Of a DNA stretch of 64,000 bases, positions 50,389-57,106 are shown in pieces. The DNA lies in NCBI GenBank assembly GCA_032250735.1, contig JAVVEP010000010.1, forward strand, positions 1,224-65,223. The letters run 5' to 3'. Source of the DNA: Gammaproteobacteria bacterium (GTDB lineage Bacteria > Pseudomonadota > Gammaproteobacteria > SZUA-152). A model generated the notes under the pieces. That model saw nothing but the letters and a program-made list of their open reading frames with translations, searched no databases and was not told where the DNA came from. The number at the start of each line of letters is the position of its first letter. Positions within the stretch are counted from its first letter, which is position 1. The position numbers and the translations under genes are program-made.

Positions 50389-51141
50389 ATGATATTTCGT
50401 CAATTGATCGAACCCGATTCCAATACCTACACCTATTTACTGGCCTGTCCTGAAACCGGGCAGGCGCTGCTGATCGACCCGGTGCTCGACACCTTGCAGC
50501 GTGATCTTGATGTACTACAGCAACTGGGGCTCAGGCTCGCCTATAGCGTTGAGACCCACCATCATGCGGATCATCTGACCAGTGCAGGGATGTTGCGGGA
50601 ACGGACGGGGTGCCAGGTCGTTTACCCATCGATTGAAAAACCCGACTGTGCCGACATCGGCGTCACGGAGGGTCAGGCATTTACGATGGGCTCGGTTGAG
50701 CTGACGCCCTTATTCACGCCCGGCCATACCTCCCATCACCACGCCTACCTGTTGGACACGGGTACGCACAAAATGGTCTTCAGCGGTGATGCGCTGCTGA
50801 TTGAGGCCTGTGGACGGACCGATTTCCAGTCCGGCGATGCGGCCATGCTGTATCACAGCATCCATGAAAAATTATTTATTCTGCCCGGCGAGACACTGGT
50901 ATATCCCGCACATGATTATGAGGGCCGATGTGTTTCCAGTATCGCCCAAGAGAAAATACGCAATCCTCGCCTGGGCGGTGAGAAAAGCCTGCAGGAATTC
51001 GTCAGCATTATGCAGGGCCTGGACCTGCCCTACCCGCGCAAGATCGATTTCGCCGTGCCGGGCAATGAACAATGCGGCAAATGCCCACCGAATGTGCCGG
51101 ATGAATACAGGGGACCGTGCGAACCGCATGAGCAGGGCTGA
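50389..51141 (+). CDS. ETHE1-type persulfide dioxygenase
   Basis: 250-residue metallo-beta-lactamase-fold iron dioxygenase that oxidises glutathione persulfide to sulfite. The start IFRQLIEPDSNTYTYLLACP and the metal motif H57-x-H59-x-D61-H62 (ETHHHADH) are ETHE1-like. Further ligands are in the TPGHTSHHH, FSGDALLIEACGRTDFQ and YPAHDYEGR stretches. The Gly/Arg/Thr/Asp set around GRTDFQ matches ETHE1 rather than glyoxalase II. A C-terminal Cys-containing extension (NEQCGKCPPN) is typical of several bacterial members. It fits cytosolic sulfane-sulfur oxidation alongside Sox and Tsd. Confidence 0.9.
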   Translation: MIFRQLIEPDSNTYTYLLACPETGQALLIDPVLDTLQRDLDVLQQLGLRLAYSVETHHHADHLTSAGMLRERTGCQVVYPSIEKPDCADIGVTEGQAFTMGSVELTPLFTPGHTSHHHAYLLDTGTHKMVFSGDALLIEACGRTDFQSGDAAMLYHSIHEKLFILPGETLVYPAHDYEGRCVSSIAQEKIRNPRLGGEKSLQEFVSIMQGLDLPYPRKIDFAVPGNEQCGKCPPNVPDEYRGPCEPHEQG

Positions 51142-51260: not shown

Positions 51261-52832
51261 TCAGTGCGCTGTTGCCGGAGACAGGCCTCTTTCCTCCTTG
51301 GCGGGATTTTTGTCGGCATCGGCCTTCGCCTTTTTGTCTAGCAACTTCTCAAGCGCTTCGGGCGTGCGACCGTAAAGACAATTCTCGTTATGGTGCTTGT
51401 CGCGGGTGTGCTCAACGCTTTGTACAAAACGCGGGTCCCCCGGGCGATCATGACTGTTCACAAATAGCGCCACATCCCAGGCCTCCTGATCGGTCAATGA
51501 TCCACCTAAACCATACGGCATGTTGGCCTTGATAAAACCGGCGGCAGTGTTGATGCGATGCATACCGGCACCCCAGTTGAATGAATCCTTTCCCCACAGC
51601 GGCGGGAAGGCATATCCATTCTCAGTCGGGGTCCCCTGCCCGTCAGCCCCATGACATATCACGCAGCTGTTCGTATACACCGCCTCACCACGTTTCATGT
51701 CGGGCGTTTGGGGTGGTTGCGCCAGATTGAGAAAACCCTGACCGGGTAAGCGGGTTCCGGTCGGGGCACCGCTGGCGAGCCAGTAGTGATAGGTCACCAG
51801 TGCCGTCATTTCCTTGCTGTCCACCGGCGGCGCCTTTCCATCCATGCTGAACTGGAAGCACCCCTGGATACGGGTCTGAATGGTATCGACCTGCTGGGTC
51901 TTCGAGCGATAGGCAGGATAGATGACATAAGCTGCCCACAACGGGGCCGAATAGGGTTTACGGCCATTATTGAGGTGGCAATTGGCGCAGTTCAGTCCAT
52001 TGCCGACAAAGGCACTGGCATGTTGTTGGGTATTGATGAAGATGCTTTTACCCAGCAGTACGGTATTGCCGAATTCATTGTCCGGAATTTCGCTTTCCGG
52101 TGGCGGTACAAACTTGACGGCTGATGTTGGCCGGCTCTCCTCTTTACTCGACACCTTTTTACTCGGCACCTTGCTCTGAAAGGCGCCGATATCGGCCGGT
52201 TCGGCACCCGTACGCGTCGTCAGGTACTGGGCGACGGCCTGCATGTCTTCGTCGCCAAGACTGTCAGACAATGCCTTCATCAGGCTCTGTGGATCATTGC
52301 GGCGCAGACCGCTTCTCCAGGCCTTCAACTGGGTGACAATATACGTGGCGTGCTGTCCGACAATCGGGGGGAATGCCGGTTCAACGCCCACCCCACCATT
52401 CACATGACACTTGAAACACGGCGGTATGTCTTGCTCCCAGTCACCATTTCTTGCCAGTTCCTCACCACGCGCAAGGACGGCGGGATCCGCATCAGATGAC
52501 GGTATTTTGGTGCGCGGCAAGCTCGCGTAATAGGCTGCGGCCGATGCGGCATCCTCGCTACTCAAGGCCTTGGCGATGGATGCCATGATCGGATTAGCGC
52601 GCGTACCCACCTTGAAGTCGGCGATCTGTTTGATGAAATAGGCCTGCGGCAAATGTGCCAGCGCCGGAAAACCGGCCAGCGGGTTACCCGCACCATCGAC
52701 GCCATGGCAGGTAATGCAGGCCGTCGCGGCCCCGCTGCCCTGTGTGACGATGGCCGGCGGAGCGCCCACTGCTGTGGAGATGGCCGCAGCCATTAGGCTG
52801 AGCAGGAATAATACCGTCCTGATTGGTCGCAT
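51261..52832 (-). CDS. tsdA: TsdBA-type fusion: tetrahaem thiosulfate dehydrogenase
   Basis: Periplasmic cytochrome of about 523 residues, predicted to oxidise thiosulfate to tetrathionate. The signal peptide (RTVLFLLSLMAAAISTAVGA) follows ATG 52832, which has GGAG nine bases upstream. The N-terminal half (about 25-200) is a dihaem cytochrome c4-like domain (CITCH, CFKCH), like TsdB. The C-terminal half is TsdA-like: NCANCHLNNGR, TIQTRIQGCFQFSMDGK and CVICHGADGQG. The Cys in RIQGCFQ corresponds to the conserved TsdA segment around the catalytic site. TsdBA fusions have been described in purple sulfur bacteria. A Lys/Asp-rich tail ends the protein. Confidence 0.85.
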   Translation of the reverse strand: MRPIRTVLFLLSLMAAAISTAVGAPPAIVTQGSGAATACITCHGVDGAGNPLAGFPALAHLPQAYFIKQIADFKVGTRANPIMASIAKALSSEDAASAAAYYASLPRTKIPSSDADPAVLARGEELARNGDWEQDIPPCFKCHVNGGVGVEPAFPPIVGQHATYIVTQLKAWRSGLRRNDPQSLMKALSDSLGDEDMQAVAQYLTTRTGAEPADIGAFQSKVPSKKVSSKEESRPTSAVKFVPPPESEIPDNEFGNTVLLGKSIFINTQQHASAFVGNGLNCANCHLNNGRKPYSAPLWAAYVIYPAYRSKTQQVDTIQTRIQGCFQFSMDGKAPPVDSKEMTALVTYHYWLASGAPTGTRLPGQGFLNLAQPPQTPDMKRGEAVYTNSCVICHGADGQGTPTENGYAFPPLWGKDSFNWGAGMHRINTAAGFIKANMPYGLGGSLTDQEAWDVALFVNSHDRPGDPRFVQSVEHTRDKHHNENCLYGRTPEALEKLLDKKAKADADKNPAKEERGLSPATAH

Positions 52833-53101
52833 TATCTGTCTCTCCATAAGGTATTGGACGCATTTCCATGGCATAGCAATTTAAGATTGCTCGCCCCGTC
52901 CTAAGCGACTATAGACCAAAACCCTGCAACTGCCCGCAGACCATCGCCGTTTCCTGACCGGCCCGGTTTTCACTTCCCCACAGTGGAGCCTGACATGCAA
53001 TCGTGATAGTGATCCCGCCAAAGACGCAGATGATCACCCGTTAAAAACGTACAAATATTTATCGAGTTATATCGCCAGAGTGCGCATGGAGGTTAGCAAG
53101 C
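52833..53101. promoter_or_regulatory. Region upstream of the tsd fusion gene
   Basis: About 270 bp between the terminator at 53102 and the tsdBA start; it must contain the tsd promoter. No operator was recognised. Confidence 0.4.
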
Positions 53102-55445: not shown

Positions 55446-55482
55446 TCGCACTACACTACTCGAACTACACTAATCGCACTAC
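55443..55482. repeat. Short direct repeats between converging genes
   Basis: Two copies of TAATCGCACTACA flank a diverged ACTACTCGAACTACAC stretch in the gap between the GGDEF gene and the PfpI-DsrC gene. Confidence 0.6.
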
Positions 55483-56354
55483 AGATAGGCCTTTGCCTCC
55501 TCGCCCGGATCGGGCAGGCCGGCGATGCGCCAGGCCTTGATCCCCTCGTTATTGAAATGCCGTTCGATGCAATAAACATCGTCCTGATGCGCGGACTTAC
55601 AGAGGTGATGAAAGTCGGGCACATTCCGATGCTGTTGATAGTGTTCCCGCAGGGCAAAGATGATTTGCCATTGCGCCTCCGACAGCTCGTCTAGCCCTTC
55701 CTGTTTTGCCAGCCCCAGCGCCAGGTGTTCGTCCCAGTTCTCCGGGCTCAGCAGAAAACCCCCTTCATCCCGTTTGAGACCCGACAGATGCTTGCGTGGA
55801 TTGACTGTTGCGGACGACGCCACCTGAGGGCCCTGTGGCGGTGGGTACTGCAGGCTGTTTTCAATGGCATCGCAAAAGGCATCGAGATCCGCGGGCTTAC
55901 GCGAGGTGATCAGATTGCCGTCGATCACCACCGCCTGATCGATCCACACGGCACCGGCATTCACCAGGTCCGTTTTCACCGAGGCCCAGGAGGTTAGTGT
56001 CCTGCCCCGGACAACGCCCGCCTCGATCAACAACTGTGGTCCGTGACAGATGGCGGCGATGGGTTTTCCCGCGTCGGAAAATCCTCGCACCAGGGAGACT
56101 ACGTCGGGGTTGGTGCGTAAGTGGTCGGGGCTATGTCCGCCCGGGATCACGAGCAAGGCGTAATCGTCCGCGGAGACGGCGCGCGCCGAGAAATCGATCC
56201 GGGCAACACTTTGGTCGCGCTTGCCCTTAATCGCGGCCCCGGCCTCGGTGCCGATGATATCCACAATATAACCGGCCTCTTGCAGCCGCTCATAGGGAAT
56301 CTGAAATTCCGAGTCTTCAAAGCCTTCGCCGACAATGATTGCTACCGCTGACAT
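55479..56354 (-). CDS. DJ-1/PfpI domain fused to a DsrC/TusE-like domain
   Basis: 291-residue two-domain protein. Residues 1-170 are a DJ-1/PfpI class I amidotransferase-like domain: E13 in EGFEDSEF, VIPGGHSPDHLR and the nucleophile C103-H104 in AAICHGPQ. Residues 193-291 match DsrC/TusE: DEGGFLLSPENWDEHLALGLA, LSEAQWQIIFALREHYQQH, VPDFHHLCKSA and KAWRIAGLPDP. The conserved C-terminal Cys of DsrC/TusE is absent, because the end reads GEEAKAYL, and the DsrC loop before the last helix is shortened. It cannot carry sulfur in the usual DsrC way; it may be a DsrC-derived binding or regulatory module. It is a single gene between a GGDEF gene and mscL. Confidence 0.85.
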   Translation of the reverse strand: MSAVAIIVGEGFEDSEFQIPYERLQEAGYIVDIIGTEAGAAIKGKRDQSVARIDFSARAVSADDYALLVIPGGHSPDHLRTNPDVVSLVRGFSDAGKPIAAICHGPQLLIEAGVVRGRTLTSWASVKTDLVNAGAVWIDQAVVIDGNLITSRKPADLDAFCDAIENSLQYPPPQGPQVASSATVNPRKHLSGLKRDEGGFLLSPENWDEHLALGLAKQEGLDELSEAQWQIIFALREHYQQHRNVPDFHHLCKSAHQDDVYCIERHFNNEGIKAWRIAGLPDPGEEAKAYL

Positions 56355-56650
56355 GGAAACTCCTGAGAAATCGTGGACGCTGATACCAGAGGATTAAAAA
56401 ATATCCGCGCCTCGAATGCATTGCGATTTCACAATGACGAAGGCCCGCGGTTTTTTCACAGGCGCTCGGGGCGCGGACAGGCGACCCGGCAAATGCTATC
56501 GCCCTGACCTGTCGCACGCTGCCTTGACAATCAATCAATCCCGGCAAATGATCCAAGGATATCTGCACGACCGTTTTTACCCGTAGTCGTTTCTGATAAC
56601 GGGGCTTATTTCCTCTTTAATCTTATGTCTTTGCACAGGGAGAACCGGGC
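56355..56650. promoter_or_regulatory. Divergent region between PfpI-DsrC gene and mscL
   Basis: 296 bp with no gene recognised. It must hold promoters for both neighbours. CAGGGAG lies nine bases before the mscL ATG. Confidence 0.4.
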
Positions 56651-57106
56651 ATGTTTAAGGAATTCAAGGAATTTGCCATGCGTGGCAACGTGGTGGATAT
56701 GGCGGTGGGCATCATCATCGGCGGCGCATTTGGCACCATCGTCAAGAGTCTGGTGTCCGATATGATGATGCCGCCACTGGGCCTGTTACTGGGCGGGGTG
56801 GATTTTTCCGATCTCTTTATCACTCTCAAGCAAGGCGCGATCGCCGGCCCGTATCCGACCCTGGTCGCGGCCCAGGCCGCCGGTGCGGTGACTATCAGTT
56901 ATGGCCTGTTTATCAATTCGGTCATCAGTTTCCTGATCGTGGCCTTTGCCGTGTTCCTGCTCATCAAGGGCATTAACAGAATGCAGCGCGAGAAAGAGGC
57001 GCCGCCCGTCACGCCGACCACCAAGGACTGTCCCTTTTGCGCCACGCCGATCCCCCTCAAGGCGCTACGCTGCCCGCATTGCACCTCTGAACTGGCGGGC
57101 ACCTGA
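56651..57106 (+). CDS. mscL: MscL, large-conductance mechanosensitive channel, with zinc-ribbon tail
   Basis: 151-residue channel that releases solutes on osmotic downshock. The N-terminal helix and TM1 are typical ([20 protein letters not shown]), as is TM2 ([20 protein letters not shown]). Unlike E. coli MscL, the C-terminus has a CPFC...CPHC motif, a possible zinc ribbon, before the end. A terminator shared with accA follows. Confidence 0.95.

Follow-up and report, generated by a model that had tools for sequence, protein, structure and literature searches.

Dissimilatory sulfur metabolism relies on DsrC as its central sulfur carrier. Canonical DsrC contains two cysteines located 11 residues apart, i.e., Cys100 (CysB) and the sulfur-carrying Cys111 (CysA) in A. 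vinosum (PMC3397948). The genome of A. vinosum harbors, besides dsrC, four DsrC/TusE-type genes of unresolved role (PMC3368242), and DsrC proteins without one or both cysteines have been noted in phages (PMC8190135). TusE has the DsrC fold in common with these proteins and retains CysA. Cysteine-poor relatives of DsrC are reportedly named RspA in a 2014 review by Venceslau, a description that might include the proteins considered here. Among the DJ-1 proteins, the PfpI/YhbO subfamily is represented by P. aeruginosa PfpI, E. coli YhbO, and PH1704. The catalytic Cys, His, Glu, and Asp of P. aeruginosa PfpI have been either shown to be essential or proposed, and mutation of Cys112 or His113 abolishes its methylglyoxalase activity (PMC11987610). 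DJ-1 domains are also found fused to other partners, as in 3FSE (DJ-1 with a ferritin-like domain), the GlxA/FtrA proteins (DJ-1 with AraC), and the large catalases (PMC9137513), the partner domains of which differ from the DsrC-like domain described below. No description of a PfpI-DsrC protein was found in the open-access papers searched, in agreement with the initial annotation, which knew of no described system of this kind.

Sequence Analysis and Structural Modeling of the PfpI-DsrC Fusion

The window (the whole stretch of 64,000 nucleotides that was analysed) harbors a gene coding for a PfpI-DsrC fusion, the features of which are as follows:

55479..56354, minus strand: PfpI-DsrC fusion gene, 291 aa, one open frame through both domains
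56360..56364, minus strand: Shine-Dalgarno-like AGGAG, 5 nt upstream of the ATG
55863..56345, minus strand: DJ-1/PfpI domain, residues 4–164, TIGR01382 subfamily (Pfam, NCBIfam; AlphaFold pLDDT ∼98 in the full-length model)
56043..56048, minus strand: Cys103-His104, corresponding to the catalytic pair Cys112-His113 in P. aeruginosa PfpI
55779..55844, minus strand: Pro/Gln-rich linker, residues 171–192, model confidence low from residue 176 on
55506..55778, minus strand: DsrC-like domain, residues 193–283 (Pfam, PDB sequence search, domain model)
55599..55601, minus strand: Cys252 in the HTH-like helix
55530..55532, minus strand: Trp275 at the CysB position (A. vinosum Cys100)
55497..55499, minus strand: Glu286 at the sulfur-carrying CysA position (A. 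vinosum Cys111)
55482..55505, minus strand: C-terminal tail GEEAKAYL, residues 284–291, clade-conserved, short helix predicted

The initial annotation had proposed the fusion and had made it depend on a profile search recovering DsrC at the C-terminal residues. The Pfam profile search identified both an intact DJ-1_PfpI domain (residues 4–164, E 9e-51) and, in the same frame, DsrC (PF04358) at residues 193–283 (E 7e-17), scoring 62 bits and hence above the gathering cut-off of 24.9. With the NCBIfam profiles, the protein scored above the curated cut-off for PfpI (TIGR01382, 183 bits vs. 139) and just below that for TusE/DsrC/DsvC (TIGR03342, 47.3 bits, or 50.8 for the domain alone, vs. 53.5). 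The C-terminal part alone matched the DsrC structures 2xsj_C, 1ji8, and 1sau in a PDB sequence search (E 5e-8 to 3e-7). The alignment behind the full-length structural model contained no homologues of the DsrC half, which was modelled unreliably, and a domain model built from a 34-row alignment was used instead. This AlphaFold model (pLDDT 90, pTM 0.84) agreed with the DsrC fold assigned earlier, and all seven PDB matches to it under 1e-3 were DsrC-family proteins, including 2v4j_C, which is bound to DsrAB. The next-best folds were the winged helices of LexA, matched weakly (E ∼1).

The spacing of Cys103, His104, Glu13, and Asp77 in the PfpI half is identical to that of Cys112, His113, Glu22, and Asp86 in P. 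aeruginosa PfpI, and E13, C103, and H104 were invariant in an alignment of 22 PfpI rows. This spacing and the TIGR01382 score liken the fusion to the PfpI/YhbO subfamily, from which it differs by the C-terminal DsrC-like domain. The best reading of the conserved Cys-His-Glu-Asp set is that the PfpI half is catalytically competent, its activity being predicted. The nearest relatives of this half (57–64% identity) are stand-alone proteins in the genomes G146, G268, and G263, two of which also possess a stand-alone member of the DsrC clade described below elsewhere in the genome; members of the window's own genus showed only distant DJ-1 proteins. The earlier suggestion that the protein repairs sulfur-modified proteins is conjectural: the PfpI half is of the methylglyoxalase/deglycase subfamily, and human DJ-1 is the one case in which persulfide reactivity is known. 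There, persulfidation of C106 by sulfane donors is much faster than its oxidation by H2O2 (PMC9856005). A set of cyanobacterial and acidobacterial PfpI proteins of 350–400 aa (L001–L006) also carries a C-terminal extension, possibly 3FSE-like (DJ-1 with a ferritin-like domain).

The DsrC Half Belongs to a Conserved Clade Lacking Both Carrier Cysteines

Alignment of the DsrC half confirmed the loss of the sulfur-carrying CysA, the column of which is occupied by Glu286, and revealed a second loss that had gone unmentioned, that of CysB, replaced by Trp275. The two residues lie 11 positions apart, the same spacing as that of CysB and CysA in canonical DsrC. The initial annotation had treated the missing cysteine and the EEAKAYL tail as private to the fusion; instead, both define a conserved and mostly stand-alone clade. 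A search of relatives and 369 genomes of the class identified stand-alone proteins of ∼110 aa that match residues 194–291 to the very end, mostly at 40–50% identity. In the alignment of 34 clade members, Trp occupied the CysB column and Glu the CysA column in 34/34, the invariant positions being W, E, and Y; the C-terminus continues as E-x-x-x-Y-[LM], with A-x-x-Y-[LM] after the Glu in most members, and residue 252 is Cys in 32/34. The fusion keeps every clade-invariant residue, and a decayed pseudo-domain was rejected on these grounds. Judged by these replacements, the clade cannot carry sulfur at the usual place, and the altered DsrC probably serves in docking or control instead of carrying sulfur.

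A phylogenetic tree was built with 35 other DsrC/TusE-type paralogues, which came from nine genomes and comprised canonical DsrC, TusE-like proteins, and further kinds; in it, the clade was monophyletic with a branch support of 100/100. The fusion did not group with canonical DsrC but was placed inside the clade, beside the stand-alone copy of a genome of the same family (G012), with moderate support (80/86). Taken by its sequence, the fusion is thus an unusual representative of a conserved clade of non-carrier DsrC proteins and not a lone oddity. The clade shares with DsrC (A. vinosum Alvin_1256; D. vulgaris DsrC, 2v4j) the fold and the W, LRxxY, and AGLPxP patterns, and differs from it by the CysB-to-Trp and CysA-to-Glu replacements, a longer tail, and the separate position in the tree; it differs from TusE in having no Cys at the CysA position. 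Other DsrC-like paralogues of sulfur oxidisers are likewise extra DsrC-fold proteins without one or both carrier cysteines, and the groups seen with tails ...RKGGY, ...WSTG, and ...MRKP were separate from the Trp/Glu clade on the tree. Two DsrC-like groups possessing only CysB, with CKxAGM..RPRxWSTG and CKIAGMRKP..LxLD tails, recur across genomes (L012, L169, L170, and L181; L176, L178, L179, and L184). A different group without either carrier cysteine, with the tail ...AGLPESRRKGGY, occurs in the window genome (G000:C13:8298-8603), divergent from and a few kb upstream of dsrA; its counterparts are L185, L180, L186, L173, and L187. It lies near dsrC in several other genomes, and its synteny with the dsr cluster is conserved. 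One genome (G268) contains eleven DsrC-domain loci, two of them in the Trp/Glu clade.

DJ-1 joined to an AraC-type HTH is a known architecture, which speaks for a one-component transcription regulator in which the HTH of the DsrC fold would bind DNA and the PfpI half would sense a ligand, as in the GlxA/FtrA-type proteins. The LexA winged helices, a weak FtrA match in NCBIfam, and the conserved Cys in the HTH-like region point the same way. However, the LexA matches are weak, the Pfam search of the fusion protein found no AraC-type HTH domain, unlike in the GlxA/FtrA regulators, and the PfpI catalytic residues are kept. Moreover, the clade members are acidic (median pI 5.5, net charge −6), with a positive charge no greater than that of carrier DsrC, and are best conserved in the C-terminal arm and not in the HTH helix. 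A DNA-binding role is therefore less likely, and such a regulator appears quite improbable.

The Fusion Is Known From a Single Genome

The possibility of an assembly artefact, raised earlier as a test of the fusion, was evaluated by searching the genome for the junction DNA, which was found once. Repeat-mediated misassembly is unlikely because this junction has no second copy in the genome, and with the frame being open throughout, this candidate was rejected. No other PfpI-DsrC fusion was found among 57 relatives, 369 class genomes, and 24 genomes of the order, nor in a non-exhaustive peptide-seeded scan of GTDB species genomes. Hence, of the earlier concern that the fusion might be isolated and an artefact, the isolation stood, since it is known from one genome only, whereas an artefact is unlikely. 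As the fusion is present in one genome and absent from 11 congeners, selection on the fused state is not measurable. For the adjoining MscL gene (window 56651-57106), a search of 23 relatives (E <= 0.001) gave no match; this stretch may therefore be a recent acquisition.

Occurrence in a single genome and the flexible linker would also suit a chance event, in which a PfpI gene landed before an existing clade gene, or a stop was lost, with the two halves remaining independent. In line with this, the nearest PfpI relatives are stand-alone proteins, two of their three genomes having a separate clade member, and in G018, a genome of the same family, a PfpI-family gene and a clade gene occur unfused ∼6 kb apart on one contig. 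Against it, neither half has lost an invariant residue of its family, and a DsrC-domain search of the window genome found no stand-alone copy of the clade. Because the invariant residues are kept and no stand-alone copy remains, the DsrC part of the fusion probably remains in use, and a chance fusion of independent halves is considered rather unlikely.

Distribution of the Clade and Its Association With DsrA

A DNA pattern for G-L-P-[ND]-P-G-E-E matched 30 of the 369 class genomes, the reversed control giving 0 matches. One match (G261) was due to chance and was dropped, G175, clade-like with a disturbed tail, was counted as a carrier, and three genomes with members varying in the motif (G147, G258, and G338) were added. 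The clade was found in 32/369 class genomes, spread over 20 families. DsrA (TIGR02064) scored above the cut-off in 112/369 class genomes and in 29 of the 32 carriers (Fisher p ∼1e-13, which overstates the evidence because the genomes are related to each other); the three carriers without DsrA are incomplete genomes (72–81% complete). The association is partly phylogenetic; the distribution among 20 families, however, speaks against an effect of a single lineage. Since the clade is present in only 29 of the 112 DsrA genomes, the reverse-Dsr pathway does not need it. In a phylum sample of 398 genomes, a profile search at a strict E of 1e-30, by which absence is not proven, returned no clade member beyond the window genome. 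No match was obtained in phage or plasmid records, and a phage origin was rejected, as the 14 viral-contig matches to the tail DNA pattern were all in unrelated frames. In the window genome, dsrA and canonical DsrC are located on one contig (C13) and the fusion on another (C10), hence outside the dsr cluster; four more DsrC-like genes likewise lie elsewhere in the genome.

Genomic Neighbourhood and a Second Fusion

Comparison of the neighbourhoods of the stand-alone members revealed no conserved operon around the clade genes. In four genomes, a protein of 150–167 aa, apparently membrane-associated and without a Pfam match, is encoded directly downstream of the clade gene (L047:8516-8971, L083:4273-4776, L089:191-670, and L091:2245-2748). 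Sulfur genes nevertheless recur: CysB-type regulators are positioned beside clade members in G018 and G079, and G208, as well as probably G068, has a TsuA-like sulfur transporter there. Within 6 kb of the fusion lie genes for a Blh-like metallo-beta-lactamase and a SoxA/TsdA-type cytochrome c. The former (window 50389-51141) partly resembles the sulfur dioxygenase Blh and is adjoined by the latter (window 51261-52874), a cytochrome c of several domains, among them SoxA/TsdA.

A second fusion, PAS-PAS-DsrC of 590 aa, ends in a clade member (L095:986-2758, minus strand, contig C24 of G068). The join falls where the PAS (NATPELDENG) and DsrC (DEDGFL) sequences look alike. Two related readings draw on this protein. 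The DsrC-like protein without carrier cysteines might be a dedicated control factor of the reverse-Dsr pathway, onto which PfpI, or PAS in G068, is plugged as a redox or sulfur input, which we regard as possible, if somewhat unlikely. More specifically, and a shade less probably, the Glu could imitate the negatively charged tail of loaded DsrC (persulfide or sulfonate), plug the DsrC sites, and throttle the pathway, with PfpI and PAS as interchangeable inputs of the redox or sulfur state. The invariant Glu exactly at CysA and the invariant Trp at CysB, the PAS fusion, and the DsrA association are consistent with such mimicry, as are the persulfide-sensitive Cys of human DJ-1 (PMC9856005) and the occurrence, in a few genomes, of a CysB-type regulator or a TsuA-like transporter next to clade members. 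However, the charge mimicry is conjectural, the PAS fusion was seen once, and the full PfpI catalytic set exceeds what a pure sensor needs.

Possible Role of the Fusion

The reading preferred here, although tentatively, is that a competent PfpI/YhbO-type enzyme is tethered to partners of the reverse-Dsr pathway by a docking domain of DsrC fold that is not itself a carrier. The DsrC-like half, with its AGLPxP arm kept, would most likely bind DsrC-binding proteins without accepting sulfur; in reverse-Dsr sulfur oxidisers, we infer the DsrEFH/TusA relay, DsrAB, and DsrMK as candidate partners. This reading draws on the domain and profile matches, the DsrC-fold model with its match to DsrAB-bound 2v4j_C, the invariant residues and the tree, the association with DsrA, the presence of dsrA and canonical DsrC in the window genome, the intact PfpI catalytic set, and the persulfidation of human DJ-1. 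Such a tether would bring the reactive Cys103 to the reverse-Dsr machinery, where it might remove carbonyl adducts from reactive thiols or read the local persulfide level. Methylglyoxal detoxification or repair, the known activity of the subfamily, would be one option at the dock, and a sensing role is hinted at by the rapid persulfidation of Cys106 by sulfane donors in human DJ-1 (PMC9856005). The initial annotation had considered a decoy that binds DsrC partners; this idea is in keeping with the altered clade being associated with DsrA, the binding itself being conjectural. The docking proposal is opposed by the neighbour genes not being conserved, by the fusion occurring in one genome, by the many DsrA genomes that do without the clade, and by the partly phylogenetic nature of the DsrA association. 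TusE also counts against it, as it shows that the DsrC fold can serve other partners.

The reverse-Dsr genomes examined contain up to 11 DsrC-fold loci each. With fixed, different residues in place of both carrier cysteines, the clade represents a defined and testable non-carrier member of the DsrC family, and its fusions to an enzyme and to PAS domains point to what it may be coupled to. If the clade docks on the partners of DsrC, it would offer a handle on the control or protection of the reverse-Dsr pathway.
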